DNA of 23,972 bases from a virus. The notes below the pieces were generated by a model. The model was not told the origin of the DNA. It ran no database searches and saw only the letters and a program-made list of their open reading frames with translations. Where the stretch lies: positions 1-23,972 of the IMG/VR virus record IMGVR_UViG_3300021962_000648. One strand, given 5' to 3'. The position numbers were made by a program, and so were the translations under genes. This document shows positions 8,336-23,434 of this stretch, piece after piece (position 1 is the first letter of the stretch; every line of letters begins with the position of its first letter).

Positions 8336-8554
8336 ATGAAAGTAAAAGTTGAAGGACATGAAAACTTACTAAGAGATATTAAATCAAATGCAATTATTAA
8401 CACAAATATTTCTGATTTTAAATTATATATGAATAGAAAAAAAATGAGAGAAAAAGATGCTGATGAAATTAGGAATGCATGTAAAGAGATAAATAATTTA
8501 AAGAAAGAATTGTACGAAATTAAAGAATTAATAAAAAATTTAGGTAAAAAATAA
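8336..8554 (+). CDS. Small charged helical protein (72 aa), unknown function
   Basis: I chose the ATG at 8336, one base after the upstream stop, because the product then begins MKVKVEGHENLLRDIKSNAI. This start is familiar from a small conserved protein in T4-like cyanophage genomes. An upstream in-frame ATG at 8318 would add six residues but lies inside the giant gene. The second half is charged and helical (DADEIRNACKEINNLKKELY, ending LIKNLGKK) with heptad-like spacing of Ile/Leu, suggesting a short coiled coil. The stop overlaps the next ATG (TAATG), so it is coupled to the following fibre-type gene. Function is unknown. Its place between baseplate and fibre genes suggests an assembly or linker role. 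Confidence 0.72.
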   Translation: MKVKVEGHENLLRDIKSNAIINTNISDFKLYMNRKKMREKDADEIRNACKEINNLKKELYEIKELIKNLGKK

Positions 8555-8964
8555 TGGCTATAAGATCAGTTGCAACAACAGATACAGTTGAAGGTTTTAG
8601 AACAACTTTCAATAATTTAGGAACAGACGTAGGAGATTTAAATAATCTTAATACTGTTGAACAAGGTAGTATTGTTGGTGCATTAAACGAAGTTTTAACT
8701 GCAACATCTACTTTTACAATAAGAGATGAAACTTCATCTGTTCAAACTATAGGAAACAATGATACGCTAAATATATTAGGAGATACTAATATTACCGCAT
8801 CCGTTTCCGCTACGGATAGATTGACTATTTCTTTAAATTCTAGTATAACTGGACTAACGAATATAACAGCTACTGGAACAATAGAAGGAGCTGCGATTAC
8901 CGAAAATGGTATAAGAGTAGCAACAAAACCTTTTGCAATTGCTCAGGCAATAGCTTTAGGATAA
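8554..8964 (+). CDS. Short fibre-type protein with KPFAIAQAIALG C-terminus
   Basis: This 136-residue protein has an N-terminus (RSVATTDTVEGFRTTFNNLG) typical of marine phage fibre proteins, followed by 'NLNTVEQGSIVGALNEV'. The middle is a beta-rich Ser/Thr/Asn segment (ADRLTISLNSS-like, then TGLTNITATGTIEG). It ends in KPFAIAQAIALG, and exactly the same 12 residues end the 308-aa fibre at 19333-20259 although the codons differ. It looks like a mini-fibre made of an anchor, one repeat-like segment and a shared tip or trimerisation end. The start overlaps the previous stop (TAATG). It is the last gene before a pair of late promoters. The precise virion location is inferred. Confidence 0.75.
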   Translation: MAIRSVATTDTVEGFRTTFNNLGTDVGDLNNLNTVEQGSIVGALNEVLTATSTFTIRDETSSVQTIGNNDTLNILGDTNITASVSATDRLTISLNSSITGLTNITATGTIEGAAITENGIRVATKPFAIAQAIALG

Positions 8965-8966
8965 AA

Positions 8967-8974
8967 TATAAATA
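8967..8974 (+). promoter_or_regulatory. T4-type late promoter core (distal of a tandem pair)
   Basis: Exact TATAAATA starting three bases after the preceding stop codon, on the + strand. It lies 62 nt upstream of the next ATG. With the copy at 9011-9018 it forms a tandem pair 44 bases apart, start to start. Confidence 0.65.
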
Positions 8975-9010
8975 ATTGATAGGAATTTAGATAATAAAAA
9001 CTAAAACTAT

Positions 9011-9018
9011 TATAAATA
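9011..9018 (+). promoter_or_regulatory. T4-type late promoter core (proximal of a tandem pair)
   Basis: Exact TATAAATA ending 18 nt before the ATG at 9037, with an AGAGGA ribosome-binding site at 9025-9030. This spacing closely matches the promoters before gp8 and before the 308-aa fibre gene. Confidence 0.78.
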
Positions 9019-9036
9019 GATTAAAGAGGATAACTA

Positions 9037-9408
9037 ATGGCTAACGATTTTAAAAGATTTACTGCACAAAGTGTTTCAGACAATTCAGGAGCATCTGGTG
9101 ATGTTGTTTATACAGTACCAGCTGGTTCGGATTCATCAGCGTTAGAATCAATTGTAATCGGTATAAGTATTTCAAATAAAACTGCTTCAGATACTACAGC
9201 AGAAATATTTTTAGATTCTTATTCAGGTTCAGGTGATGACGCATACATTGTAAAAGGTATTTCAATACCTGCAAATACAAGTGTTGAGCTGATGTCAGGA
9301 AACAAAATAGTTCTTCAAAACAATGGAACAACTGGTGATATTCTAAAAGCTTCTAGCGGAACTGCTAGTGCTTTAGATGTTGTTGTTTCTGTTTTAGAAG
9401 ATGTGTAA
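9037..9408 (+). CDS. Small beta-rich virion structural protein (123 aa)
   Basis: The protein begins MANDFKRFTAQSV and has a beta-rich body: a VVYTVPAG segment, then SIVIGISISNKT, DDAYIVKGISIPANTSVEL and a C-terminal LDVVVSVLEDV. The order 'YTVP... VIGLSVSN... TYIVKG..IP.G.S....' is recalled from small virion proteins of T4-like cyanophages, where it occurs near fibre genes. No catalytic motif is present, and the predicted fold is a single beta sandwich. It is first in the unit driven by the tandem late promoters, so it should be made in quantity. Whether it decorates the tail, baseplate or capsid cannot be told from the sequence. Confidence 0.72.
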   Translation: MANDFKRFTAQSVSDNSGASGDVVYTVPAGSDSSALESIVIGISISNKTASDTTAEIFLDSYSGSGDDAYIVKGISIPANTSVELMSGNKIVLQNNGTTGDILKASSGTASALDVVVSVLEDV

Positions 9409-9442
9409 TAAACATATAAGTAAAAGAGATTAAGGATAAAAA

Positions 9443-9685
9443 ATGGTAAGATATATACCCGAAACCAAAGCACCGACTAATATAGTTAGAAGAAGCTATA
9501 CTGGTGATGGATCTACGACTAACTTTACTGTTACAGCGGGATCTAAAGTGAATGATGTTTACGTTGACATTAACGGTATCATGCAATTACCTACAACAAA
9601 CTATACTATATCTGGAACTACATTAACTTTTGATGAAGCTCCTGCGAATGGATATAGTATTCATATCATAGAATATCCAATTTAG
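9443..9685 (+). CDS. Single-domain fibre-type beta protein (80 aa)
   Basis: Nearly the whole protein is one beta module: YTGDGSTTNFTVTAGSKVND, then VYVDINGIMQLPTTNYTISG, TTLTFDEAP and a terminal HIIEYPI. The same module occurs inside the giant baseplate protein near residues 1890-1950 (TGDGSTTAFTLS ... DFTVAGTTLTLDNAPAIGS). It is widespread in phage fibre proteins as a repeated beta unit. Here it stands alone with a short N-terminus (MVRYIPETKAPTNIVRRS). It has an AAGGA ribosome-binding site and is followed closely by the large adhesin gene. It may be an adaptor that plugs a fibre into the baseplate, or a decoration protein. The choice between these is inference. Confidence 0.72.
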   Translation: MVRYIPETKAPTNIVRRSYTGDGSTTNFTVTAGSKVNDVYVDINGIMQLPTTNYTISGTTLTFDEAPANGYSIHIIEYPI

Positions 9686-9703
9686 GGGAGGATAAATAAT
9701 TGT

Positions 9704-11506
9704 ATGCCAAGAAAAATTAGAGAAAATAATACAGGATTTGATTCTGACACAACTCAACTAAGAGTTCCTAAAGGAACAACAGCACAAAGACCATCTTATA
9801 CAGCTGGTACTAATGCTGGTGCTATAAGATTTAATACTACAGATGGAACACTTGAACAATGGGACGGAAATTCTTGGTTTCAAATTGCAGCTAATCCTGA
9901 AATTACAGGTGCAACTTCTTCAACATTAGGATTAAACGAAGATGATAACGCTGTTGTAACTATAACAGGTACTTCATTATCTTCAGTAAATTCAGTTACA
10001 TTTATAAGAAATTCAGATACAACATTATTATCTACAGCAGCTACAGTTTCAATTGTTGATGATACAACAATTACAGCTACATACGATTCTACCGATTTTA
10101 CTGGTGAAGCTGGTAATGATATTGATATAAAAGTTACTACAGCTTCAGGAAAAACATCTACACTATCCCGAGCATTTACAATTTCTGCCGATCCAGTATG
10201 GACAAAAGCTGCAGGTTCTTTAGCTACAATTGCAGACGGAAGTAGAACAGGTGTTTCAATTACAACAGGCGCTACGGTAGTAGGTGGCGATACAATTTCA
10301 TACGAATTAACAAGTGGTTCACTACCAGGTGGATTAACTTTAAACGCTTCAAGTGGTACAATTTCAGGTAACGCTAGTGTTGTTAGTACACAAACAACAT
10401 ATACATTTACTTTAACTGCTTTTACACTAACAGTTGACTCTGCTGTAAGAAGAACAGCTAGAGAATATTCAATTACAATTGGAGCTCCATCTATTTCTTG
10501 GACAACTTCAGCTGGTTCATTAGGTACTTTATCAAATGGAAATAGAGCTGCATCAGCTTTAACAACATCTACACTTGTTGCTTCAGCTTCAAGCGGTACA
10601 ATAGCATATAACATAACAACAGGTGCATTACCTTCAGGTTTAAGTTTAAACACATCTACAGGTGCTATTACAGGTACAGCTGCTCAAGTTGGTACAAATA
10701 CAACATCTAGTTTTACAGTAACAGCTTCTGCTACAGGTTCATATGTGGGTTCAATTTCAGAAGCAAGAGCATTTTCAATTTTAGTAGAAGCTCCAGTTGT
10801 TGCTACATATACATCTTCAGGTACATTTAGTGTACCATCAGGTGTATCTACAGTTGACGTATTAATCGTTGCTGGTGGCGGCGGTGGTGGTGCTCAAGGT
10901 AACGGTGCTCAAGCTGAAAGATGTGGAGGCGGTGGTGCTGGTGGTTTAATTTATAAACCAGCTCATGGTGTTTCTCCAGGTTCTTCAATTAGTGTAACTG
11001 TAGGAAATGGCTCAGGTCCTTCTCCATTAAATAACAACCACGGTGGTCCTAACGGTGACCAAGGTGGTCCTTCAATTTTTGATAGCTTAACGGCAATAGG
11101 TGGCGGACACGCTGCTTCAGGTGCTGGAGGTTCAGGTGGAGGTGTTAGAGGTCCTGGATCAGGTGCTGGTGGACCAGGTCAACAACCTGCACAAGGAGGA
11201 GATTCAGGAACTTACGGATTTGGAAATCCAGGTGGCGGTTATCTTGGACAACAAGGTGGCGGTGGCGGTGGCGCTAGTCAAGCTGGACAAGGTGTTCGAG
11301 GTGGTGACGGAAGATCATACTCTATTAGTGGTTCATCTGTAGAATACGCTGGAGGAGGCGGAGGATACGGTGGTAACGGTGGAAACGGTGGCGGAGGATC
11401 ATATAACGGTGGTTCTGCTACTGCGAATAGAGGTGGCGGTGCTGCTGGAGGACATCAAACTCCTGCTGGTTCTGCTGGAAAAGGTATAGTTATCGTTGCT
11501 TACTAA
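9704..11506 (+). CDS. Putative tail fibre adhesin: Ig-like domains plus glycine-rich tip
   Basis: This 600-residue protein has a clear domain series. Residues ~26-63 carry the common phage fibre motif AGAIRFNTTDGTLEQWDGNSW. Residues ~69-157 look like an IPT/TIG-type Ig domain (ITGTSLSSVNSVTF). Two He_PIG-like Ig domains follow at ~160-258 (GSLPGGLTLNASSGTISG) and ~262-361 (GALPSGLSLNTSTGAITG). From ~367 there is a glycine-rich domain opening TFSVPSGVSTVDVLIVAGGG and full of GGGG, GGAGG and GGNGG runs, ending GKGIVIVAY. Glycine-rich tips with this entry motif are known in phage receptor-binding proteins and can form polyglycine II bundles, as in Salmonella phage S16 gp38. This is therefore the best host-recognition candidate here. 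A GGGGAGG ribosome-binding site lies 11 nt upstream. The local GC content of the tip is much higher than in neighbouring genes. Confidence 0.85.
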   Translation: MPRKIRENNTGFDSDTTQLRVPKGTTAQRPSYTAGTNAGAIRFNTTDGTLEQWDGNSWFQIAANPEITGATSSTLGLNEDDNAVVTITGTSLSSVNSVTFIRNSDTTLLSTAATVSIVDDTTITATYDSTDFTGEAGNDIDIKVTTASGKTSTLSRAFTISADPVWTKAAGSLATIADGSRTGVSITTGATVVGGDTISYELTSGSLPGGLTLNASSGTISGNASVVSTQTTYTFTLTAFTLTVDSAVRRTAREYSITIGAPSISWTTSAGSLGTLSNGNRAASALTTSTLVASASSGTIAYNITTGALPSGLSLNTSTGAITGTAAQVGTNTTSSFTVTASATGSYVGSISEARAFSILVEAPVVATYTSSGTFSVPSGVSTVDVLIVAGGGGGGAQGNGAQAERCGGGGAGGLIYKPAHGVSPGSSISVTVGNGSGPSPLNNNHGGPNGDQGGPSIFDSLTAIGGGHAASGAGGSGGGVRGPGSGAGGPGQQPAQGGDSGTYGFGNPGGGYLGQQGGGGGGASQAGQGVRGGDGRSYSISGSSVEYAGGGGGYGGNGGNGGGGSYNGGSATANRGGGAAGGHQTPAGSAGKGIVIVAY

Positions 11507-11538
11507 ATAATTTTTTATATTATATTGAAAGGTAAATT

Positions 11539-11964
11539 ATGAATGAAAATAATACAATTGATTTGGATAAAGAAGTTACTCAGGAAGAATCTTATAAAGG
11601 TTTGTTAGATACTTCAATGATTACCGAAGAAGGTAAAAAAATAGCTTCTCATATTATTGAAAAATTTATTGAAAGCAATAACCTACAGAACGTTAATCCA
11701 GCAATACTAAAATCACTTATCGTAAAAGAATTTGGTCTAAAAGAAAAAGAAACTGTAAATTTTAGACAAACATATTTTTTTAGTAAATTTTCAAAATTTA
11801 TTACTAGAATGGGTGTGTCATTAGCAGGTCATATCGAAAAAGAAGATAAGAAAATACCAATCATTAATATGACTGTTGCTGTTGATGAACTTGACCTAAT
11901 GGTTAAAGAAGTGATAAATGAAGAAGTAGAAAAAAAATTAGAAGAATTAAAAACTAACAAATAA
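11539..11964 (+). CDS. Unrecognised helical acidic/basic protein (141 aa)
   Basis: I do not recognise this family. The protein is charged and predicted to be largely helical, unlike the beta-rich fibres around it. It has an acidic N-terminus (NTIDLDKEVTQEESYKGLLD), a middle stretch with FRQTYFFSKFSKFITRMGVS, and a C-terminal coiled-coil-like run (DELDLMVKEVINEEVEKKLE). It has a GAAAGG ribosome-binding site and codon use like its neighbours, and it sits after the adhesin with only a 32-base gap. By position and character it could be a chaperone, linker or assembly factor for the adhesin or the next proteins. This is a guess from context only. Confidence 0.65.
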   Translation: MNENNTIDLDKEVTQEESYKGLLDTSMITEEGKKIASHIIEKFIESNNLQNVNPAILKSLIVKEFGLKEKETVNFRQTYFFSKFSKFITRMGVSLAGHIEKEDKKIPIINMTVAVDELDLMVKEVINEEVEKKLEELKTNK

Positions 11965-11972
11965 ATAATATT

Positions 11973-12194
11973 ATGAGTGAAAAAAAAGATATTATACTTA
12001 TAGATAATAAAGAATATAAACTTGATGATTTGTCAATACCTTTAAGAAATACGATTGCAGCTAGACAAGAAATACAGCAATCAAAAGTAAGGCATGAGTT
12101 GGAACTAGAAAAAATTGATGTCTTAACTGATTATTACAATAAAAAGATAAAAGAGGAAATTGATAAATTAAATGGCAGCAGTAGCGAATCTTAA
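11973..12194 (+). CDS. Small coiled-coil protein (73 aa), DUF6447-like N-terminus
   Basis: The protein starts MSEKKDIILIDNKEYKLDDL and continues with a helical segment AARQEIQQSKVRHELELEKI and a lysine/glutamate-rich tail. The 'I.IDGKEY.LDDLS......L' opening followed by a coiled coil resembles a family of small phage and bacterial proteins (DUF6447-like) of unknown function. The gene begins eight bases after the previous stop and its last 23 bases overlap the start of the following gene in another frame. The overlap suggests coupled expression. A role as a small structural linker or chaperone is plausible but not demonstrated by any motif. Confidence 0.65.
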   Translation: MSEKKDIILIDNKEYKLDDLSIPLRNTIAARQEIQQSKVRHELELEKIDVLTDYYNKKIKEEIDKLNGSSSES

Positions 12195-12507
12195 AATAGA
12201 CCAAGGTGCAAGTTTTAGTTCGGATGTAACTGTAACAAATACAGACGGCGACGCTGTAGATTTATCAGGTTACACAGTAACAGCTAGAATGTCAAAAGAC
12301 TATGGTTCTTCAACATATACTACAATAACCTCTAATATTGCAGCTGACCCTACTACAGGCGTTATTACTTTATCTTTAACAAATTATCAAACATCAAATT
12401 TAGACGCTCCAGCAAGATATGTGTATGATGTTTATATTACACAAACCTCAACTAGCACGGTAACAAGGGTTATTGAGGGAATTATTACTATAAATCCAAA
12501 AGTTTAA
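12172..12507 (+). CDS. BppU-like baseplate/virion protein (111 aa)
   Basis: The pattern is 'AAVANLKIDQGASFSSDVTV', then DLSGYTVTARMSKDYGSS, GVITLSLTNYQTSNL, ARYVYDVYI and a terminal VTRVIEGIITINPKV. It is characteristic of a small beta-sandwich protein common in T4-like marine phages and similar to N-terminal domains of phage baseplate upper (BppU-type) proteins. The motif 'Y.YDV.......V.RV.EG...V.P.V' is its hallmark. The ATG lies inside the end of the upstream gene (23-base overlap), with an AAAGAGGAA stretch upstream serving as ribosome-binding site. Fibre attachment to the baseplate is a reasonable role given the long fibre genes directly downstream, but it is an inference. Confidence 0.75.
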   Translation: MAAVANLKIDQGASFSSDVTVTNTDGDAVDLSGYTVTARMSKDYGSSTYTTITSNIAADPTTGVITLSLTNYQTSNLDAPARYVYDVYITQTSTSTVTRVIEGIITINPKV

Positions 12508-12529
12508 TAGTTCTTCAACATATTTTCAT

Positions 12530-12537
12530 TATAAATA
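12530..12537 (+). promoter_or_regulatory. T4-type late promoter core before the long fibre genes
   Basis: Exact TATAAATA in the 55-base gap after the BppU-like gene. It is followed by a strong GAGAGAGGA ribosome-binding site (about 12545-12554) and an ATG at 12563. It would drive the 90-, 800-, 157- and 1182-residue genes. Confidence 0.78.
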
Positions 12538-12562
12538 TTACAAAAGAGAGAGGAACCATCAA

Positions 12563-12835
12563 ATGGTTAAAGCAGTTATTAATCAAACTGGAGGTGTTAG
12601 AGCAAATATCAACTCTAGTAATTCACAGGGACCACAACAGGTTTCTGTACAAGTGCCTAGTACAAATATTAACTTATCAAACGTTAATAGATTAAGAAGC
12701 TTAACAGATGTAGATTCAACAACTTTGAATGATGGAGCCTTATTACAGTATGACGCTACTAGTGATAAATTTATAACAAAAAATAACATTGATACAGATA
12801 CAGGAATTATTGTATTCAATGGAGGAAGTTTTTAG
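12563..12835 (+). CDS. Short fibre-associated protein (90 aa)
   Basis: This small protein begins MVKAVINQTGGVRANI and includes the segment RLRSLTDVDSTTLNDGALLQ followed by YDATSDKF. The 'L.DVD.S...DGALL.YD..S..F' string is a recurrent element of marine phage fibre proteins. It ends NGGSF, and the next fibre gene ends DGGTF, so the two may share a C-terminal feature. The stop is ten bases before the next start, and the intervening TTTAGGGAGAAATAA supplies the ribosome-binding site for the 800-aa fibre. It may be an adaptor for that fibre. Function is inferred from position and motif only. Confidence 0.7.
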   Translation: MVKAVINQTGGVRANINSSNSQGPQQVSVQVPSTNINLSNVNRLRSLTDVDSTTLNDGALLQYDATSDKFITKNNIDTDTGIIVFNGGSF

Positions 12836-12845
12836 GGAGAAATAA

Positions 12846-15248
12846 ATGGCAACAATTATTCAGATTAAAAGAAGTTCAAATACAACCGCTCCTTCTACTT
12901 TAAAACTAGGTGAATTAGCATATACATATGGTACTGGTACACAAGGAAATTTAGGAGATAGGTTATTTATAGGAGAAGGCGGCGTTGACGCTAACGGAGA
13001 TGCCAATAACGTAACGGTAATCGGTGGTCAGTATTTTGCTGATAAATTAGATCACGCTGACGGAACATTAACAGGAAATTCGGCATTAACAGTAGATTCA
13101 AATTTAGCAATTGATACACTAAACGTAGGAAATTCAACTACTGTAGGTGGTACAATTAAATTTAATGAAGGTACAAATAACGGTTCAAATTTTATTGCGT
13201 TAAAATCTCCCAATGACGTAACAACTTCAACAACCTTTGTTTTACCAAATGGTGATGGATCTTCAGGACAATTTTTAACTACAGACGGTTCAGGTAATTT
13301 ATCATTTTCAACAGTAACTCAAACTCTCTCTATAGCTGCTGATACTGGTTCAAATGATTCTGTAAGTACAGGTGAAACAATAACTTTCACTGGAGATACA
13401 GGTATTACAACAACTGTTTCTGACAACACAATAACAATTGATTTAGATGATACAGCGGTAACTCCAGGCACATATGGTTCATCTTCAGCAATTCCAACTT
13501 TTGTAGTTGATCAACAAGGTAGAATTACATCTGCTAGTACAACAAACGTTGCTACAACATTAACTATCGTTGATGAATCTTCAACTGCTACAACAATCAA
13601 TTTATTAAATGATACTTTAAAGTTAACAGGTGGTTCAGGTATAACTACAGTAGCTTCTGGTGACACAATTTCTATTAACTTAGATTCAAATATTGTAACC
13701 GAAGATTCAACTGACACATTAACTAACAAAACTATTGATTTAGATTCAAATACTATAACAGGTACATTTGCTGAATTTAATACAGCTGTACAGGATGCTA
13801 CTTTAGTTTCTACAACAGGTACTGAAACACTTACAAATAAAACTATTGATAGTGCTAGTAACTCATTAACAGTTGACTTATCAGAAGCAACAGTAACAGG
13901 TACTTTTGCTGAGTTTAATACTGCTGTATCAGACGCAACATTAGTTTCTACAACAGGAACAGAAACACTTACAAATAAAACTATTGATAGTGCTAGTAAC
14001 TCATTAACATTAGATTTATCTGAAGGTACTTTAACAGGTACTACGGCTGAATTTAATACAGCATTAAGTGATGGTTCTTTTGCTACATTAGCAGGAACAG
14101 AAACACTTACAAATAAAACAATAGACGCTTCTAACAATACTTTATCAAATATTGGTAACTCTTCGTTAACAAATTCATCTATCACAATTGGTTCTGATAG
14201 TGTATCATTAGGTGCTACACAAACAGACTTAAATGGTATCACATCAGCTGATATTGATAATATAACAATTGATGGTAATACAATTTCAACAACAGATTTA
14301 AATGGTGATTTAATTTTAAACCCTAACGGTACAGGTGATATTGATGTTAATAGTAGTAAAATTATTAATGTTGCAACTCCAACTGCTGATAATGACGCTG
14401 CCAACAAAGCATATGTTGACGGTGTTGTAAATGGTTTAGATGTAAAAGAATCAGTATCAGTCGCTACAACAACAAATTTAACAGCAACATATAATAATGG
14501 TGCAGGAACTTTAACAGCTAATTCAAATGGTGCTTTATCAATTGATGGTGTAACACCAAGTGAAGGTGCTAGAGTTCTTATTAAAGATCAAACTACACAA
14601 ACACAAAACGGTATCTATGTAGTAACTACTGTAGGTGACGGTTCAACAGCATTCGTATTAACTAGAAGTCCAGACGCTGACACAGCTTCTGAATTAACTG
14701 GTGGTACTTTCTTCTTTGTAGAACAAGGTACAAATAATGCTGACAATGGTTATGTTGCAACTCACAATGGTACACCAACCTTTGGTGTTACAAACATCAC
14801 CTTCTCACAATTCTCTGGCGCAGGTCAAATTAGTGCTGGCGATGGTTTAACTAAAACTGGTAATCAATTAGATGTACAAGTAGATGATAGTTCCATTGAA
14901 ATTTTTAGTGATTCTTTACAAGTTAAAGCTTTAGGTATCACAAATGCTATGTTAGCTGGTTCAATCGCAAATGATAAACTTGCAGGTTCAATTACAAATA
15001 ATAAACTTGTAAATTCAACTATTACTTTTGCAGATGACTCTTCAACAATATCAACAGTATCGCTTGGTGGTGTTTTAACAATTTTAGGTGGCGAAGGTAT
15101 GGACGCTACATTTAATGGTGATACATTAACAATATCTGGTGAGAATGCTTCAACATCAAATAAAGGTGTTGCTTCATTTAGTTCAGATAACTTTATAGTT
15201 AGTTCTGGTGCTGTTAGTGTTTCTAGTATTGATGGTGGAACATTTTAA
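12846..15248 (+). CDS. Long repeat-containing tail fibre protein (800 aa)
   Basis: The N-terminus MATIIQIKRSSNTTAPSTLK, then LGELAYTYG and GDRLFIGEGG, is a widespread phage fibre start that is also seen in the 157-aa protein downstream. Residues ~200-280 hold the cassette [14 protein letters not shown]...VDQQGRIT, which recurs twice in the 1182-aa fibre. Residues ~294-434 are tandem repeats built on 'TLTNKTID...N' and 'GTFAEFNTA..D' with a 46-residue period. At ~510-660 is a common fibre domain (DNDAANKAYVDGVVNGLDVK, then GARVLIKDQTTQTQNGIYVV). The end has two 'NDKLAGSI/NNKLVNST' short repeats and finishes DGGTF. This is a trimeric fibre type of protein by its repeat style. The exact fibre (long, short or whisker) cannot be assigned. 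Confidence 0.88.
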   Translation: MATIIQIKRSSNTTAPSTLKLGELAYTYGTGTQGNLGDRLFIGEGGVDANGDANNVTVIGGQYFADKLDHADGTLTGNSALTVDSNLAIDTLNVGNSTTVGGTIKFNEGTNNGSNFIALKSPNDVTTSTTFVLPNGDGSSGQFLTTDGSGNLSFSTVTQTLSIAADTGSNDSVSTGETITFTGDTGITTTVSDNTITIDLDDTAVTPGTYGSSSAIPTFVVDQQGRITSASTTNVATTLTIVDESSTATTINLLNDTLKLTGGSGITTVASGDTISINLDSNIVTEDSTDTLTNKTIDLDSNTITGTFAEFNTAVQDATLVSTTGTETLTNKTIDSASNSLTVDLSEATVTGTFAEFNTAVSDATLVSTTGTETLTNKTIDSASNSLTLDLSEGTLTGTTAEFNTALSDGSFATLAGTETLTNKTIDASNNTLSNIGNSSLTNSSITIGSDSVSLGATQTDLNGITSADIDNITIDGNTISTTDLNGDLILNPNGTGDIDVNSSKIINVATPTADNDAANKAYVDGVVNGLDVKESVSVATTTNLTATYNNGAGTLTANSNGALSIDGVTPSEGARVLIKDQTTQTQNGIYVVTTVGDGSTAFVLTRSPDADTASELTGGTFFFVEQGTNNADNGYVATHNGTPTFGVTNITFSQFSGAGQISAGDGLTKTGNQLDVQVDDSSIEIFSDSLQVKALGITNAMLAGSIANDKLAGSITNNKLVNSTITFADDSSTISTVSLGGVLTILGGEGMDATFNGDTLTISGENASTSNKGVASFSSDNFIVSSGAVSVSSIDGGTF
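13725..14147 (+). repeat. Tandem NKTID repeats in the 800-aa fibre gene (138-bp period)
   Basis: Four NKTID motifs begin at 13725, 13836, 13974 and 14112. The last three are exactly 138 bp (46 codons) apart and the first unit is shorter (37 codons), lacking the nine-residue 'VDLSEATV'-type insert. Between units 2 and 3 a 48-bp stretch is identical (13824-13871 and 13962-14009). This points to recent duplication or recombination between units. Confidence 0.9.
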
Positions 15249-15269
15249 TAATTAATAGAAAGTTTAATA

Positions 15270-15743
15270 ATGGCTTCTGTAATTAAATTAAAAAGAACAA
15301 CAACTGCTAGCAGTGTACCAACAACTTCAGATTTGGTTGATGGTGAAGTTGCTGTAAATATAGCAGACAGAAAAATTTATGTTCGCAATGGAGCAAGTAT
15401 TGTAGAAGTTGCTAATAATACTTCTAGTTCTGCTTTAGATTTAACAAATGTTTCTACTAATATTGTACCAGATTCAGATGCTCAAAGGGATATTGGTACT
15501 ATACAAAGTATCTTTGATGAAATTTTTGGTTATGATGTAATTGCATTAAAAGACACTTATAGAGGATGTAAAGTTTTTACAAATAGTGGAGGATTATCAA
15601 CTTCACAAACACTATTTAAATTTAAACTAAATACAGTAGGTTCAAAATTTGATCAAGTATATACAAGTTCAGGAGGATTAGGAAGTGCGGCTATCTCAAT
15701 ACCTAGCAATTTTAATGATGATAACCCAGCTTTTTTATTTTAA
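15270..15743 (+). CDS. Short fibre-type protein (157 aa), paralogue of long-fibre ends
   Basis: The N-terminus MASVIKLKRTTTASSVPTTS, then DLVDGEVAVNIADRKIYVRN, matches the anchor type of the 800-aa fibre (IIQIKRS...LGELAY...DRLFIG). The middle has a PDSDAQRDIGTIQSIFDEIF segment like the 'LGS..RRW..LYLSG' element of the 1182-aa fibre. The C-terminus (FTNSGGLSTSQTLFKFKL ... FLF) resembles the end of the 1182-aa fibre ([19 protein letters not shown] ... FVF). It is therefore an anchor joined almost directly to a tip, with no long repeat shaft. It lies between the two longest fibre genes, 21 bases after one and three bases before the other. A tip or adaptor role is inferred. Confidence 0.78.
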   Translation: MASVIKLKRTTTASSVPTTSDLVDGEVAVNIADRKIYVRNGASIVEVANNTSSSALDLTNVSTNIVPDSDAQRDIGTIQSIFDEIFGYDVIALKDTYRGCKVFTNSGGLSTSQTLFKFKLNTVGSKFDQVYTSSGGLGSAAISIPSNFNDDNPAFLF

Positions 15744-15746
15744 TAG

Positions 15747-18700
15747 ATGGCAGAAAAAACACCAATTAGACTAGTATTTACCAGTGGAACCCCAACAGGT
15801 ATTGCTGAATATCAATCAGGCGATACAATAGGAAATTCATTTCTTACAAATCCTAATTTTACTTTAGTTGATGATAGTTCAACTTCAACAACAATCTCTC
15901 TAGGAGAAACACTAAAAATAACAGGAACAGGTGGAATAACCACATCATTATCAGGAGATGTTTTATCGATTTCAGTTGATGGTTCTATTGTAACTGAAAG
16001 TTCTGCCGACACATTAACTAATAAAACTATAAGTGGATCTTCAAACACCTTATCTGATATTGGTAATTCATCACTAACTAATAGTACAATTACAGTTGAT
16101 GGTGATAGTGGATCACAAGCTATTGATTTAGGAGATACTTTAACAATTTCTGGAGATACTGGAATTACAACTTCAGTTTCAGGAGATTCAATATCAATTG
16201 ATTTAGATGACACAGCAGTAACTCCAGGTTCATATGGTTCTACTACTGCTATACCTGTCATAACGGTAGATCAACAAGGAAGATTAACAAACGTAAGCAC
16301 AAGTAATATTTCTACAGTATTAACAGTAGTTGATGATAGTTCAACAAGCGCTTCTATTAATTTATTAAATGATACTTTAAAAATATCAGGAACTTCTAAT
16401 GAAATTGAAACATCTATTTCGGGTGATACACTTTCAATAGGCCTTCCTAATAATGTTACAATAGGTAATAATTTATCAGTTACAGGCAATGCAACAATAT
16501 CAGGAGATTTAACAGTAAATGGAACAACAACAACTGTTAATTCTAGTACGATAGAAATAACAAATTCATTTACATTTGAAGGTTCAACAGCGGACGCATA
16601 CGAAACAGTTTTAGGTGTAGTTGATCCTACAGCAGATAGAACAATTAATTTACCAGATGCTACGGGTACAGTAGTATTAAAAGATACAACTGATACATTA
16701 ACTAATAAAACTATTAATAGTGCTTCAAACACAATTACAATTACCGAGTCAAACATTTCTGACTTACAAAGTTATATACTTGCTGATTCAACTGACACAT
16801 TAACAAACAAAACATTTGACGCAAATGGTACAGGTAACTCCATATCCAATATTGAAGTTGCTGATTTTGCTTCAGGTGTTGTTGATACAGATTTATCAAG
16901 TGTATCCGCTAATGATGATACTCTTGCTTCAGCAAAAGCAATTAAAACTTATGTTGACAGTCAAGTTACAGCACAAGATTTAGACTTCCAAGGTGACTCT
17001 GGTGGTGCATTATCAATTGATTTAGATAGTGAATCATTAACAATCGCTGGAGGAACTGGTATTGACACTTCAGGTTCTGGAAATACTTTAACTGTTGCTA
17101 TTGATAGTTCAGTAACAACAAATACAGGTAGTCAAACACTTACAAATAAAGTTATTGATACTGCTTCAAACACAATCACAGTTGTTGAGGCTGATATTTC
17201 GGATTTACAATCTTATATACTTGCTGATAGTACAGACACTTTAACAAACAAAACTATCAATTTAACATCAAATACGTTAAGTGGTACTACTGCTGAATTT
17301 AATACAGCATTAAGTGATGGTTCTTTTGCTACATTAGCAGGTTCTGAAACATTAACAAATAAAACTTTAACAACACCTGTCATTAGTTCAATTTCAAATA
17401 CTGGAACATTAACACTACCTACATCAAGCGATACTTTGGTTGGTAGAGATACAACTGATACATTAACAAACAAAACTATTAATAGTGCTTCAAACACGAT
17501 TACGATTACTGAATCAAACATTTCTGACTTAGGTGCTTATATCACTGCTTCATCAACAGATACATTAACGAATAAGTCAGGTAATATATCACAATGGACT
17601 AACGATAGTGGTTATTTAACTACTGAAACTAATGATTTAACATCAGCTGTTACTTGGGCAAATATTCCAGACGCAAATGTTCCTCAATCAGCAGTTACAC
17701 AACACCAAGCGGCGTTAAGTATCACCGAAAGTCAAATAAGTGATTTAGGTGCTTATATAACAGCTTCTAGTACAGATACATTAACTAATAAAACAATTAA
17801 TGGTTCTCAATTAGTAGATGGTTCAGTCGCAAATGCTAAATTAACCAATTCATCAATCACAGTTTCAGATGGTTCTAATTCTACTGCTACATCTTTAGGT
17901 GGTACAATTACTTTTTCTGGTACAGCAAATGAAATTGAAGTTGGTGAAAGTTCTGGTACAATTACTATTGGATTACCTAATGATGTTACAATTGGAAATA
18001 ATTTAACAGTTACAGGTGATTTAACAGTCAATGGTACAACTACAACAGTTAATTCTACAACACTTACAGTAGATGATAAAAATATAGAATTAGGTTCTAC
18101 TGCTTCACCTACAGACACATCTGCTGATGGTGGTGGTATTACATTAAAAGGTACTACAGATAAAACATTTAATTGGGTAGATTCTACAGATTCTTGGACA
18201 TCATCTGAGCATTTAGATTTAGCAACAGGTAAAGAATTTAAAATTAATAGTTCAACTGTATTAACTTCATCACAAGTTTTAGGTAAATCATTACCATCAG
18301 GTGATGTAATTGGAACAAGTGATACACAAACACTTACAAATAAAACAATTAGTGGATCTTCAAACACTTTATCCAATATTGATAATGCGTCTTTAACAAA
18401 TTCGACCATTACTGTATCTGGTGATAGTGGTTCACAAGCTATTGATTTAGGAGATACTTTATCTGTAAATGGTGATACTGGTATTACAACAACTGTATCA
18501 GGCGATACTATTTCTATAGATTTAGATGACACAGCAGTAACTCCAGGTTCATATGGTTCTGCTACAGAAATTCCTACCTTTACAGTTGATCAACAAGGTA
18601 GAATGACAGCGGTTGGCATAGCTAATGTTGCGTCAAGTTTAACAATTGTTGACGATAGTTCAACAAGTGCTACAATATCATTATTAAACGATACTTTAAA

Positions 18701-19295
18701 AATAGGTGGAACTTCTAATGAAATTGAAACATCTATTTCAGGTGATAATTTAATTATTGGACTACCAGATGATGTTACTGTAGGTAACGATTTAACTGTA
18801 TCAAATGATTTATCGGTAACAGGAGCTACAGTATTAAAAGGTAATGTAACAATAGGTCAAAATACAGGAGATTCTACCGAAGATTCTATTACTGTAAATG
18901 GTAGATTTGTTTCTAATTTAGAACCTATGGCTACTGTAACTTATGACTTAGGTTCACCAAATAGAAGATGGAGAGATTTATATTTATCTGGTAATACTAT
19001 TGATCTTGCAGGAGCAACTATTTCTGGAGACGGAACAGGTTCGATTACTATTTCTGCTTCTGGTGCTATTTTACCACAAGGTTCAAAAATAGGTAGTGAT
19101 ACAATTGCATCAGCTGATGCTAGCGGTGCTGCTGTACGAAATGTACCTTTTTATACAAATTCAGGTGGCTTAGTTACTGCTGCTAAAAATTTCAAATTTA
19201 GTGCAGGCTCAAATGCTACGGTATTTCAATCAAATCAAACATTTACATTAGCAAATGGTTTTAACACTCAAACATTAGCATTGTTTGTATTTTAA
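15747..19295 (+). CDS. Very long repeat-containing tail fibre protein (1182 aa)
   Basis: The N-terminus EKTPIRLVF...TGIAEYQSG defines a second anchor type, shared only with the 308-aa fibre. The body is built of 'DTLTNKTI...SNT' units, '[20 protein letters not shown]' units and a ~155-residue block present twice (residues ~91-246 and ~864-1019). Other segments are '[17 protein letters not shown]' and, near residue 1071, [19 protein letters not shown], a common phage fibre element before the tip. The C-terminus ([20 protein letters not shown] ... LALFVF) resembles that of the 157-aa neighbour. It lies three bases after the previous stop with no strong ribosome-binding site, so translation probably depends on coupling. 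Function: host-contacting or shaft fibre, assigned by repeat architecture and location. Confidence 0.88.
16018..16480 (+). repeat. Copy 1 of a ~460-bp in-frame duplication in the 1182-aa fibre gene
   Basis: This block encodes [20 protein letters not shown] through [14 protein letters not shown]. It pairs with the block at 18337-18799 at a constant offset of 2319 bp, checked at three anchor points (16032/18351, 16269/18588, 16391/18710), so there is no indel between copies. Roughly three quarters of residues are identical by eye. Confidence 0.88.
17292..17341 (+). repeat. 50-bp stretch identical to 14046-14095 in a different fibre gene
   Basis: These 50 bases encode [17 protein letters not shown] and are identical, base for base, to 14046-14095 in the 800-aa fibre gene, with mismatches immediately outside on both sides. 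The corresponding element in the 308-aa fibre (near 19720-19770, AEFNIALSDGDFATLAG) is similar in protein but differs at many codon positions. Confidence 0.88.
18337..18799 (+). repeat. Copy 2 of a ~460-bp in-frame duplication in the 1182-aa fibre gene
   Basis: This is the partner of 16018-16480. It encodes [20 protein letters not shown] through [14 protein letters not shown]. Shorter parts of the same block ([13 protein letters not shown]...VDQQGR and LLNDTLK) also occur in the 800-aa fibre, around 13430-13630. Confidence 0.88.
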
Positions 19296-19306
19296 TGCTA
19301 AAGTAT

Positions 19307-19314
19307 TATAAATA
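19307..19314 (+). promoter_or_regulatory. T4-type late promoter core before the 308-aa fibre
   Basis: Exact TATAAATA in the 37-base gap after the 1182-aa fibre gene, ending 18 nt before the ATG at 19333. The AAGGAGA ribosome-binding site lies at 19319-19325. Confidence 0.8.
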
Positions 19315-19332
19315 GAATAAGGAGATTAATAA

Positions 19333-20259
19333 ATGACGGCAAAAATACCTATTAGAACAGTCTTTGATGGAGATGGCAATGCTACAGGTTTAGCAGAATT
19401 TCAATCAGGCGAGTTTGTAGATTACTCATACGGAGGAACTGGTCTAACAAGTTTAGGATCAGCAGGTCAAGTTTTAAAAATTAACTCGGGCGGTACAGCT
19501 TTAGAATATGGAAGCGTTGAAGCGGTCATTAATATTGATGGAGCAACAGATTTAACAGGTAGTACACTTACTGCTACGGATTTACTTTTAATATCTGATG
19601 GCGGTACTGAAGGAAGAGTCGAATTAGGACAATTAGACACTTTATTTTCAGGATCTACAAAATCACTTACTAATAAAACAATAGACTTATCTAATAATAC
19701 TTTAACAGGTACTGTAGCTGAATTTAATATCGCTTTGAGTGATGGAGATTTTGCAACACTTGCTGGTTTTGAATCATTAACTAATAAAACAATTGATAGT
19801 TCAAATAACACCATTACAATTACTGAAGCAAACATTTCTGATTTACAATCATACCTAACAGCAGAAACAAATGATTTAACATCAGCTGTTACTTGGGCAA
19901 ACGTTCCTGACGCAAATATAACTCAAAGTTCAGTAACACAACACCAAGCTGCTTTATCAATTACTGAATCACAAATTAGTGACTTAGGTGCTTACATTAC
20001 TGCTTCATCTACTGATACATTAACTAATAAAACAATTAGTGGAGCTTCAAACACATTATCTGGTTCATTTTCAGGAATTACAAGTTTAACTGCTACAACA
20101 CTAACAGACGGTACAGCTACTTTAACAAGTGGTTCACTATCTGGTATTGTTAATATTACAGCTTCGGGTACTATTAATGCTACTTCGGATATACAGGTTA
20201 ACGGAAATTCAGTTGCATTAAAACCTTTCGCTATTGCTCAGGCTATTGCATTAGGATAA
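19333..20259 (+). CDS. Tail fibre protein (308 aa) mixing modules of its neighbours
   Basis: The N-terminus KIPIRTVFDGDGNATGLAEF, then QSGEFV, is the same anchor type as the 1182-aa fibre. The shaft has 'SLTNKTIDLSNNTLTGTVAE' units and a ~58-residue cassette ([20 protein letters not shown] ... [17 protein letters not shown]) also present in the 1182-aa fibre at 17625 onward, 2239 bp away. The C-terminus VALKPFAIAQAIALG is the same as that of the 136-aa protein at 8554-8964. It thus combines the anchor of one gene with the tip of another. It has its own late promoter and a strong AAGGAGA ribosome-binding site, so its dosage may differ from that of the longer fibres. Being directly before gp13 it occupies the place of T4 wac (fibritin), but no fibritin similarity was seen. 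Confidence 0.85.
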   Translation: MTAKIPIRTVFDGDGNATGLAEFQSGEFVDYSYGGTGLTSLGSAGQVLKINSGGTALEYGSVEAVINIDGATDLTGSTLTATDLLLISDGGTEGRVELGQLDTLFSGSTKSLTNKTIDLSNNTLTGTVAEFNIALSDGDFATLAGFESLTNKTIDSSNNTITITEANISDLQSYLTAETNDLTSAVTWANVPDANITQSSVTQHQAALSITESQISDLGAYITASSTDTLTNKTISGASNTLSGSFSGITSLTATTLTDGTATLTSGSLSGIVNITASGTINATSDIQVNGNSVALKPFAIAQAIALG

Positions 20260-20294: not shown

Positions 20295-20321
20295 AAAAGG
20301 TATAATTAAAAGGTATAATTA
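20295..20321 (+). repeat. Tandem 13-bp repeat carrying the gp13 ribosome-binding site
   Basis: The 14-mer AAAAGGTATAATTA occurs at 20295-20308 and again at 20308-20321, a period of 13 bases. The second copy places AAAAGG 7 nt before the gp13 ATG, and the ATG overlaps the end of the repeat. The first copy duplicates the ribosome-binding site. Confidence 0.85.
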
Positions 20322-21133
20322 TGGCAACGCCAAGCACCAGAGAAACATTAAAACAATATGCTTTGAGAGCATTAGGTAAACCAGTCATAGAAGTCAATGT
20401 AGCTGATGATCAGCTAGAAGACAGAATTGATGAGGCATTACAATTCTTTGCTCAATATCATTATGACGGTATTGTTAGAACATACCTAAAATATAAATTA
20501 ACATCAGCTGACAAAACTAGATTGTCTGCTACTAATCCAGCTACTGAAACTGCTACACAAAATAGTGTAACAACTACTTGGTATGAAGACAACAATTTTT
20601 TAGTTGTACCAGAATCAATAGTATCTGTTATCAACATATTTCCCTTTTCAGACAACGCAAATTTAAATTTATTTGATGTAAGATATCAATTAAGATTAAA
20701 TGATCTATATGATTTTTCATCAACTTCGGTTATCAACTATGAAATGGTAAGAAGACATTTAGATTTTTTAGATCATATATTAGTAGGTGAAAAACCATTA
20801 AGATTCAATCAACATCAAAACAGATTATATATTGATATGGATTGGACTAACGATATAGCTACAGACGAATATATAGTTATTGAATGTTATCGTAAATTAG
20901 ATCCGTCAACATATACAGATATTTGGAATGATATTTTCCTAAAAAGATACGTTACTGCTTTATTTAAAAAACAATGGGGTACTAACTTAGCTAAATTTAA
21001 TGGTGTTACTATGGTTGGTGGTGTATCACTAAATGGCGGACAAATATTCACAGAAGCCTTACAAGATATAGAAAAACTAGAAAAAGAAATTAGAGATACT
21101 TTCGAATTAAATCCAGCAATGATGATAGGATAA
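20321..21133 (+). CDS. 13: Neck protein gp13 (head completion)
   Basis: The 270-residue protein matches T4 gp13 at its N-terminus: LKQYALRALGKPVIEVNVAD, then DQLEDRIDEALQFFAQYHYD, against T4 '[42 protein letters not shown]'-type sequence. The C-terminus has the family pattern of a 'K.....NG..M.GG..LNG..I..EA...' segment (VTMVGGVSLNGGQIFTEALQ) and ends in DTFELNPAMMIG, like T4 'LLDPPFGILVG'. gp13 binds the filled head with gp14 to form the neck to which the tail joins. It is somewhat shorter than T4 gp13 (309). It is first in the neck/packaging unit with its own late promoter, and the next gene begins four bases after its stop. Confidence 0.93.
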   Translation: MATPSTRETLKQYALRALGKPVIEVNVADDQLEDRIDEALQFFAQYHYDGIVRTYLKYKLTSADKTRLSATNPATETATQNSVTTTWYEDNNFLVVPESIVSVINIFPFSDNANLNLFDVRYQLRLNDLYDFSSTSVINYEMVRRHLDFLDHILVGEKPLRFNQHQNRLYIDMDWTNDIATDEYIVIECYRKLDPSTYTDIWNDIFLKRYVTALFKKQWGTNLAKFNGVTMVGGVSLNGGQIFTEALQDIEKLEKEIRDTFELNPAMMIG

Positions 21134-22737: not shown

Positions 22738-23211
22738 ATGTCAAAGATAGAAGATAAGGTTAATGAGATTTTAGGTATTGAAGATAAAAAAGAACAAAAT
22801 TATAATTCTATACAAACACAAGAATTTAAGCCTTTAGTTCCTCGTGTAGAAGAAAAAGATAAAGGTGATATAGATAATGATTACAAATATAGTAGAGAAA
22901 ATTACTATAATCTTATTGAAAGAGGACAAGAAGCTATACAAGGTATATTGGATATTGCAAGAGAAGGACAACATCCAAGAGCGTATGAGGTGGCAGGACA
23001 ATTAATCGGTCAAGTTGCAGGTACAGTTGATAAGTTGCAAGACTTACAAAAAAAATTAAAAGATTTAAAAGAATTACCTAATAAAACTTCTACAAATATT
23101 AAACAAGCACTATTTGTAGGTTCAACGGCTGAATTACAGAAAATGTTAAAGAATGAAAATACTGAAAGCAAAACAATCACACCCGAAGAAACAGATAATA
23201 GCGATAAGTGA
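22738..23211 (+). CDS. 16: Terminase small subunit gp16
   Basis: The 157-residue protein is the length of T4 gp16 (164) and has the same layout. A diverged acidic N-terminus leads to DIDNDYKYSRENYYNLIERG, matching T4 'DLEDDYGVVRRNMHFQQQ'. A helical core EAIQGILDIAREGQHPRAYE, then VAGQLIGQVAGTVDKLQDLQ, matches '[30 protein letters not shown]'. Near the C-terminus, ALFVGSTAELQKML matches 'ATVFMGSPTELMDEI'. gp16 forms rings and regulates the ATPase and nuclease of gp17 during packaging initiation. It has an AAAAGGAT ribosome-binding site. Its last 59 bases overlap the next gene in another frame. Confidence 0.92.
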   Translation: MSKIEDKVNEILGIEDKKEQNYNSIQTQEFKPLVPRVEEKDKGDIDNDYKYSRENYYNLIERGQEAIQGILDIAREGQHPRAYEVAGQLIGQVAGTVDKLQDLQKKLKDLKELPNKTSTNIKQALFVGSTAELQKMLKNENTESKTITPEETDNSDK

Positions 23212-23434
23212 TTTAACTTACGTTAAACATAATCTGATATTAGAAGATTTATTAAAAGATAAAACTCTTATAAATCCTATAGAGATAGAAAAAGATAACC
23301 ATACAGGTGAATATGGTGCAAACGGAGTATTGTATAAAAAAAAGAAATATACAGTTTTTAGAGGAAGTCGAAGAGTAACTACAGCATTAAAGTTGGGTTA
23401 CACACATATAGAGGCTATAGTAATTAATGTCTGA
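23153..23434 (+). CDS. ParB/sulfiredoxin-like small protein between terminase genes
   Basis: The 93-residue frame holds a ParB N-domain-like pattern. A segment ILEDLLKDKTLINPIEIEKD corresponds to the 'L..SI...G..NPI.V' part. KYTVFRGSRRVTTALKLGYT, then HIEAIVI, corresponds to 'Y.V..G.RR..AA..LGY..I...V'. The family's usual GERR reads GSRR here, so the glutamate is missing and CTPase or nuclease activity is uncertain. The only ATG in frame lies inside gp16 and gives a 59-base overlap; no GTG or TTG occurs before the domain. An A8 run lies at 23336-23343. The stop overlaps the gp17 start region by eight bases. In T4, gene 16 runs directly into gene 17 without this gene. A role as a packaging accessory is inference from position. 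Confidence 0.72.
   Translation: MKILKAKQSHPKKQIIAISDLTYVKHNLILEDLLKDKTLINPIEIEKDNHTGEYGANGVLYKKKKYTVFRGSRRVTTALKLGYTHIEAIVINV

Follow-up and report, generated by a model that had tools for sequence, protein, structure and literature searches.

We analyzed the tail-fiber genes in a 23,972-nucleotide stretch of viral DNA (IMG/VR record IMGVR_UViG_3300021962_000648; hereafter, the window), a 24-kb record of an oceanic, T4-like, Pelagibacter-type myophage. These genes likely encode a multi-segment tail fiber built by a plug-and-socket code, in which the C-terminal end (tip) of one protein docks to the N-terminal end (anchor) of the next gene's product or to a separate protein, p123. We estimate the probability of this reading at about 0.76. 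It is carried by the ends shared among the fiber proteins, the association of each tip with the beginning of the following gene, the recurrence of this association in unrelated phages, and the homology of one anchor with the N-terminus of T4-type gp37. All genes described below are on the plus strand.

An earlier note on this DNA had described the fiber genes as a mix-and-match of anchors, shafts, and tips. The open reading frames (ORFs) of the fiber cassette were confirmed at the coordinates given here, and their N- and C-terminal 60 residues were compared pairwise and against 300 shuffles. Anchor A, of the gp37-N/Mtd-N type, was common to p800 (12,846–15,248; anchor at 12,846–12,986) and p157 (15,270–15,743; z = 7.3). 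Anchor B was common to p1182 (15,747–19,295; anchor at 15,747–15,845) and p308 (19,333–20,259; z = 12.2). Tip 1, with the end ..KPFAIAQAIALG, was shared by p136 (8,554–8,964; tip at 8,926–8,961) and p308 (tip at 20,221–20,256; z = 14.4), and the last 49 nucleotides of these two genes were 84% identical. Tip 2 was shared by p157 (VFTNSGGL...NPAFLF, 15,573–15,740) and p1182 (FYTNSGGL...LFVF, 19,149–19,292; z = 7.3). The third proposed pair, tip 3 of p90 (12,563–12,835; NGGSF at 12,818–12,832) and of p800 (IDGGTF at 15,228–15,245), shared approximately five residues and was not significant in the pairwise test; full homology between p90 and p800 at this end was therefore rejected. Tip 2 is a domain of 50–60 residues, and tips 1 and 3 comprise only 5–10 residues.

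The ends were then clustered by BLASTP among approximately 195 related loci containing 2,097 distinct ORFs. Here tip 3 stood as a conserved C-terminal motif: the p90 end (cluster C14, n = 29) and the p800 end (C7, n = 47) were each conserved, and both terminated in [DNS]GG[STN][FY], a motif that also terminates other, unrelated upstream proteins (C36 and C32). The distinct ORFs included 114 anchor-A, 99 anchor-B, and 32 p136-type N-termini, and 88 tip-1 C-termini. Anchors A and B were each found with eight or more C-terminal types, and the p136 anchor with four or more, which bears out the mix-and-match description. Each tip was also found with several anchors, supporting module shuffling by free recombination among the related loci, as had been proposed.

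The tip of a gene predicted the anchor of the next gene, a relation absent from the earlier note. In the window, tip 3 (p90 and p800) is followed by anchor A (p800 and p157), tip 2 (p157 and p1182) by anchor B (p1182 and p308), and tip 1 of p136 by p123 (9,037–9,408). Over all loci, tip 2 preceded anchor B in 47 of 47 cases. Tip 3 preceded anchor A in 84 cases, anchor B in none, p123 in three, and other genes in three; the three p123 cases were explained by a short ORF missed in between. The gene after tip 1 belonged to the p123 family in 212 cases and was another gene, nearly always that of the neck protein gp13, in 70, and it never carried anchor A or B. Anchor-A genes were followed by anchor A when they ended in tip 3, by anchor B with tip 2, and by p123 with tip 1. 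Anchor-B genes were followed by anchor B with tip 2, by an Mtd-like anchor A with the end DLG[AS][FV][SA], and by p123 or gp13 with tip 1. Thus, the next anchor goes with the tip and not with the gene's own anchor. When the junctions were reduced to 60% identity, the rule was correct at 52 of 60 diverged junctions. These are not phylogenetically independent, and the tip 2 and DLG patterns had been derived partly from the same loci. In 20,000 shuffles within the own-anchor class, the rule was correct at 22.5 junctions on average and at 37 at most, and no shuffle reached 52.

A p136-type protein with another C-terminus ('..LKSLYGAGA') was followed not by p123 but by a different family of approximately 310 residues (N44/C45); this end and this family probably form another plug-partner pair.

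The association of tip 1 with p123 recurred outside these loci. We searched annotated phages for p123 homologues and read the preceding gene. It ended in ..AIALG, GFA[IV]AMAIAL, or a close variant in 12 of 12 phages from several families (Roseobacter CRP-9, S-TIM54, HMO-2011, HTVC203P, HTVC035P, HTVC115P, HTVC103P, an Autographiviridae contig, phage 023Pt, S-BM3, Cobetia Carin-5, and Lederberg). Three separate scans of IMG/VR with narrow p123 queries yielded 240 partly redundant contigs with p123, corresponding to 122 distinct tip 1–p123 junctions after reduction. The tag was present in all 235 assessable contigs, directly upstream in 227 and one gene further up in eight; it was cut off in one contig (L435), and four had no upstream sequence. 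Apparent exceptions to the rule were traced to ORF choice or to a single intervening gene. Among approximately 2,970 complete ORFs whose next gene was not p123, gp13, or an anchor-A or anchor-B gene, the tag occurred in 15, nearly all of which were ORF-picking misses or one-gene insertions. The flavor of the tag tracked that of its partner, GFAIAMAIAL occurring with MAQ-type and ..ALG with MAN-type p123. The tag itself was conserved while the residues just before it were unrelated.

HMO-2011, HTVC035P/203P, CRP-9, and S-TIM54 resemble the window in having a tip-1-tagged protein directly before the p123 homologue. They have one tagged protein per p123 gene in the stretch examined, whereas the window has two tagged fibers and one p123. 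In loci spanning both ends of the cluster, tip 1 on the p136-type gene was accompanied by tip 1 on the gp13-side gene and by p123; HTVC008M and one further locus (L135) were without all three. In Mosig, the p123-type gene adjoins that of a short protein carrying anchor A and a variant of the tag. No p123 relative was found in a scan of genome contigs, and no description of the tip-1 tag was found in the open-access literature.

Two arrangements were seen beside these. Three loci (L190, L191, and L194) encode a 1308-residue fiber ending in AIAMAIVFGG followed by a 119-residue protein ('MANPNVVSVAQIFG..') undetected by the p123 profile, possibly a second adaptor family. In five loci (L412, L416, L433, L438, and L451), a large gene starting with MFG[HF][GS]PFS[FT]TAFS sits between the tagged fiber and p123.

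We propose that p123 is a jelly-roll adaptor and the socket for tip 1. In an AlphaFold2 model of a p136–p123 read-through fusion, in which stops were read as glycine to serve as a linker, p123 formed a confident all-beta domain with predicted local distance difference test (pLDDT) scores of mostly 85–98. The best PDB matches of this model were all weak (E-value of approximately 1e-3) and were jelly rolls: Ena3A, FasL and the TNF family, and the KHP40 cement protein. By sequence, p123 matched nothing in Pfam and nothing informative in PHROG, and its PDB matches (a designed MS2-derived protein and a superantigen; E-values of 0.005–0.08) were judged to be due to chance. Annotation alone labels its homologues as virion structural proteins. 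The gene directly after the p123 homologue started with a YIG-type motif (M.Y[IL]G..P) in 177 of 203 cases; p123 therefore seems to hold a further anchor class, that is, a further plug-socket class with YIG-type starts. In the window, this gene is p80 (9,443–9,685), which starts with MVRYIPE. It encodes a small protein with an 'M..YI' start and a T7-tail-fiber-N-like domain, and is followed by p600 (9,704–11,506), a probable adhesin with immunoglobulin-like repeats and a C-terminal glycine-rich domain (PF21722).

The joint of tip 3 with anchor A has a counterpart in T4-type phages. Profile comparison showed anchor A to be homologous to the N-terminus of T4-type gp37 (RB14, Rpl1, KMI10, and CIP9, 35–45 bits; Acj9, weaker). 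In eight of eight annotated phages, the gene before a gp37-type N-terminus ended in a related motif. Three ended in strict DGG[ST]F, namely S-CBS2 and MED4-213 with DGGTF before anchor A (separated in MED4-213 by a small overlapping ORF) and Vibrio phage 1.293.O with DGGSF before anchor A, where DGGSF occurred twice in succession. The other five ended in D[FY]G[STY][YF] (gp36): DFGYY in RB14, DYGTY in Acj9, DFGSY in Rpl1 and KMI10, and DFGTF in CIP9; these gp36 proteins are homologous members of one family and provide a single independent case. In T4, trimeric gp36 binds the N-terminal region of gp37 (PMC3004832). A sequence search found no solved structure of gp36 or of the gp37 N-terminus.

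The window and the T4 long tail fiber (gp34-gp35-gp36-gp37) are also alike in that the genes probably lie in fiber order and a short connector precedes the long distal subunit, with anchor A resembling the gp37 N-terminus and tip 3 resembling the gp36 end, D-x-G-[STY]-[FY]. Unlike T4, the window uses the gp36:gp37-type joint twice in one chain (p90:p800 and p800:p157). It also has joints with no observed equivalent in T4, namely two of tip 2 with anchor B and one of tip 1 with p123, and places its fiber genes between VrlC and gp13. p90 had no PHROG match to a gp36 family and resembles gp36 in the end motif only, and no gp35-like hinge protein was matched among the proteins of this 24-kb fragment.

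Anchor A is also related to Mtd of Bordetella phage BPP-1, whose N-terminus matched the anchor A profile with 27 bits over nearly the full profile length. p157 scored 12.7 bits against Mtd_N (PF18454), below the gathering cut-off of 26.3 bits. In BPP-1 (L452, 3,438–6,125), the N-terminal domain of Mtd is an anchor A, and the upstream tail protein bbp9 ends in ..ADLGGIA, similar to the DLG[AS][FV][SA] end found in HTVC008M before an anchor A of the Mtd-like subtype. This suggests how Mtd is mounted. Mtd is a receptor-binding protein diversified by a diversity-generating retroelement; neither such an element nor a C-type lectin variable domain was noted among the window proteins.

Together, these observations are consistent with the following model. 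Each segment, probably a trimer, would plug by its C-terminal tip into the protein encoded next: anchor A would receive tip 3 ([DN]GG[ST]F), anchor B would receive tip 2, and p123 would receive tip 1 (...FAIAQAIALG). Direct binding at these joints, the trimeric state, and the stoichiometry are what we infer. Since each tip would dock to the next anchor, gene order is the likely fiber order, and the products would form a single linear, daisy-chained fiber, p90>p800>p157>p1182>p308, with p800 and p1182 as long segments and p308 as the terminal one. The short proteins would serve as extension pieces or converters, p157 with anchor A in and tip 2 out, and p308 with anchor B in and tip 1 out. p136, which has a different, baseplate-side anchor ('MAIRSVATTDT..FRTTFN', N9) and weak PHROG tail-fiber matches, would be a second, short fiber with the same plug as p308. 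Tip 1 may serve as a common attachment point for interchangeable adhesin modules: p123 would bear the receptor-binding module, here p80-p600, and because p136 and p308 end in the same plug, both could mount it. A wider proposal, to which we give slightly less than even odds, is that a small set of such orthogonal plugs and sockets forms a general parts standard common to unrelated tailed phages, which here would put the same adhesin on a short baseplate fiber and on the end of a long segmented fiber.

Several points weigh against the plug-and-socket code. In the p136–p123 model, the tag was undocked, with a pLDDT of approximately 48. A fusion of the p800 tail, p157, and the p1182 head was poor (mean pLDDT of 61.8); the anchors alone were of fair confidence and the joints were not obtained. 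Both joint models were single-chain predictions, which cannot represent trimers. p308, although ending in tip 1, does not adjoin p123. The gp36 end is a variant of strict DGG[ST]F, and anchor B was found in this phage group only. Finally, a plug is linked genetically to the socket beside it, and inherited synteny could account for part of their association. If synteny or hitch-hiking were the entire cause, a tip and the next anchor would be co-inherited as DNA neighbors with no binding between their products. The order p111-p90-p800-p157-...-gp13 is indeed kept in many loci, and most of the contigs are related. However, the rule persists with differing own anchors, in otherwise unrelated fibers, across intervening genes, and in the case of the non-adjacent p308, and the tags are conserved although the residues immediately before them are unrelated. 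We regard linkage alone as quite improbable.

The recognition of tip 1 by p123 could have another purpose. The gene for a fiber chaperone often lies immediately downstream of the fiber gene, and p123 is small and lies directly downstream of a tagged fiber, as expected of a folding or trimerization chaperone like Tfa or gp38. We consider a chaperone unlikely: p123 matched no Tfa/gp38-type or other Pfam or PHROG chaperone family, its predicted jelly roll resembles those of Ena appendages, TNF-like proteins, and phage cement trimers, its homologues carry the structural annotation described above, and adhesin-like genes with a common YIG start come after it. Phage fibers also often end in trimerization foldons, and the tips might be self-contained C-terminal folding motifs that register three chains, the next-gene association being secondary. 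The size of tip 2 would suit such a motif, but tips 1 and 3 span only 5–10 residues, and each tip class goes with a next anchor of its own; this explanation has a low probability in our view. The earlier note had suggested, as an alternative to module shuffling, that short proteins cap, regulate, or co-assemble with the long fiber of the same end, and each of the three tip pairs indeed joins one short and one long protein. In relatives, however, the same ends occur on proteins of varied lengths (tip 1, 109 to 2,568 residues; p157-type tip 2, 147 to 401 residues), and other phages have stand-alone shaft-less adaptors with these ends. We find that model very improbable and favor a shared end as a reusable connector that pairs with the N-terminus of the protein encoded next, with the paired proteins sitting at different steps of the chain.

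The plug-and-socket code also fits the compact loci of other phages. Shaft-less proteins consisting of a socket and a plug were found, namely proteins of 63–72 residues with anchor A and AIALG, and a 71-residue protein of Melnitz with anchor B and FAIALG. In other phages, the chain comprised a BppU_N-like protein, a protein with an LDGGSF end, an anchor A..IDGGTYS fiber, an anchor A..AIALG adaptor, p123, and an adhesin-like protein of 800–1,000 residues. The arrangement in the window resembles this compact form, expanded by two anchor-B segments and still ending in its last plug. Its chain start is p111 (12,172–12,507), a conserved BppU_N-like or 'L-shaped tail fibre assembly' protein, followed by p90 as the first chain segment.

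Because the plug and socket of a joint are DNA neighbors, recombination in the repetitive shafts would swap segments and leave the joints intact. The shafts of p800, p1182, and p308 (12,846–20,259) contain many LTNKTI-type repeat blocks with 75–90% DNA identity within and between genes, providing a ready substrate for recombination. Across genomes, p136-type and p308-type genes had tip-proximal DNA in common (up to 282 nucleotides at 72%, 155 at 83%, and 162 at 78% identity), and within one genome their bodies were usually unrelated right up to the tag.

With this code, strings of 'hypothetical proteins' in the fiber clusters of abundant marine phages become readable as an assembly order: the ends alone predict which protein follows which, and the likely adhesin is the gene after p123. 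The code suggests the composition of the T4 gp36:gp37 joint, predicts the mounting of Mtd in BPP-1, and offers a possible reason why host-range clusters recombine without functional loss. A shared parts standard, if true, would let phages of different families trade fiber segments and receptor-binding modules with no redesign of the joints.

The fiber cassette is flanked on the left by a baseplate wedge protein (phrog_438) and a 2092-residue VrlC-type protein (phrog_358), and on the right by gp13/gp14-type neck proteins, a tail sheath stabilizer, and the small terminase. gp13 (20,321–21,133) forms the fixed right border of the cluster; its best match among annotated phages was that of Pelagibacter phage Mosig (80%), followed by Melnitz and HTVC008M (approximately 61%). 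The window is a 'host recognition cluster' of the pelagimyophage type, which lies between VrlC and the neck genes (Zaragoza-Solas 2020, PMC7029224), with the same position and a likewise hypervariable tail-fiber content. The passages of that paper on the variability and gene content of the cluster do not describe pairing of ends. Outside the cassette, a 93-residue ORF at 23,153–23,434 overlaps the end of the small-terminase gene and has a weak ParB-like match.

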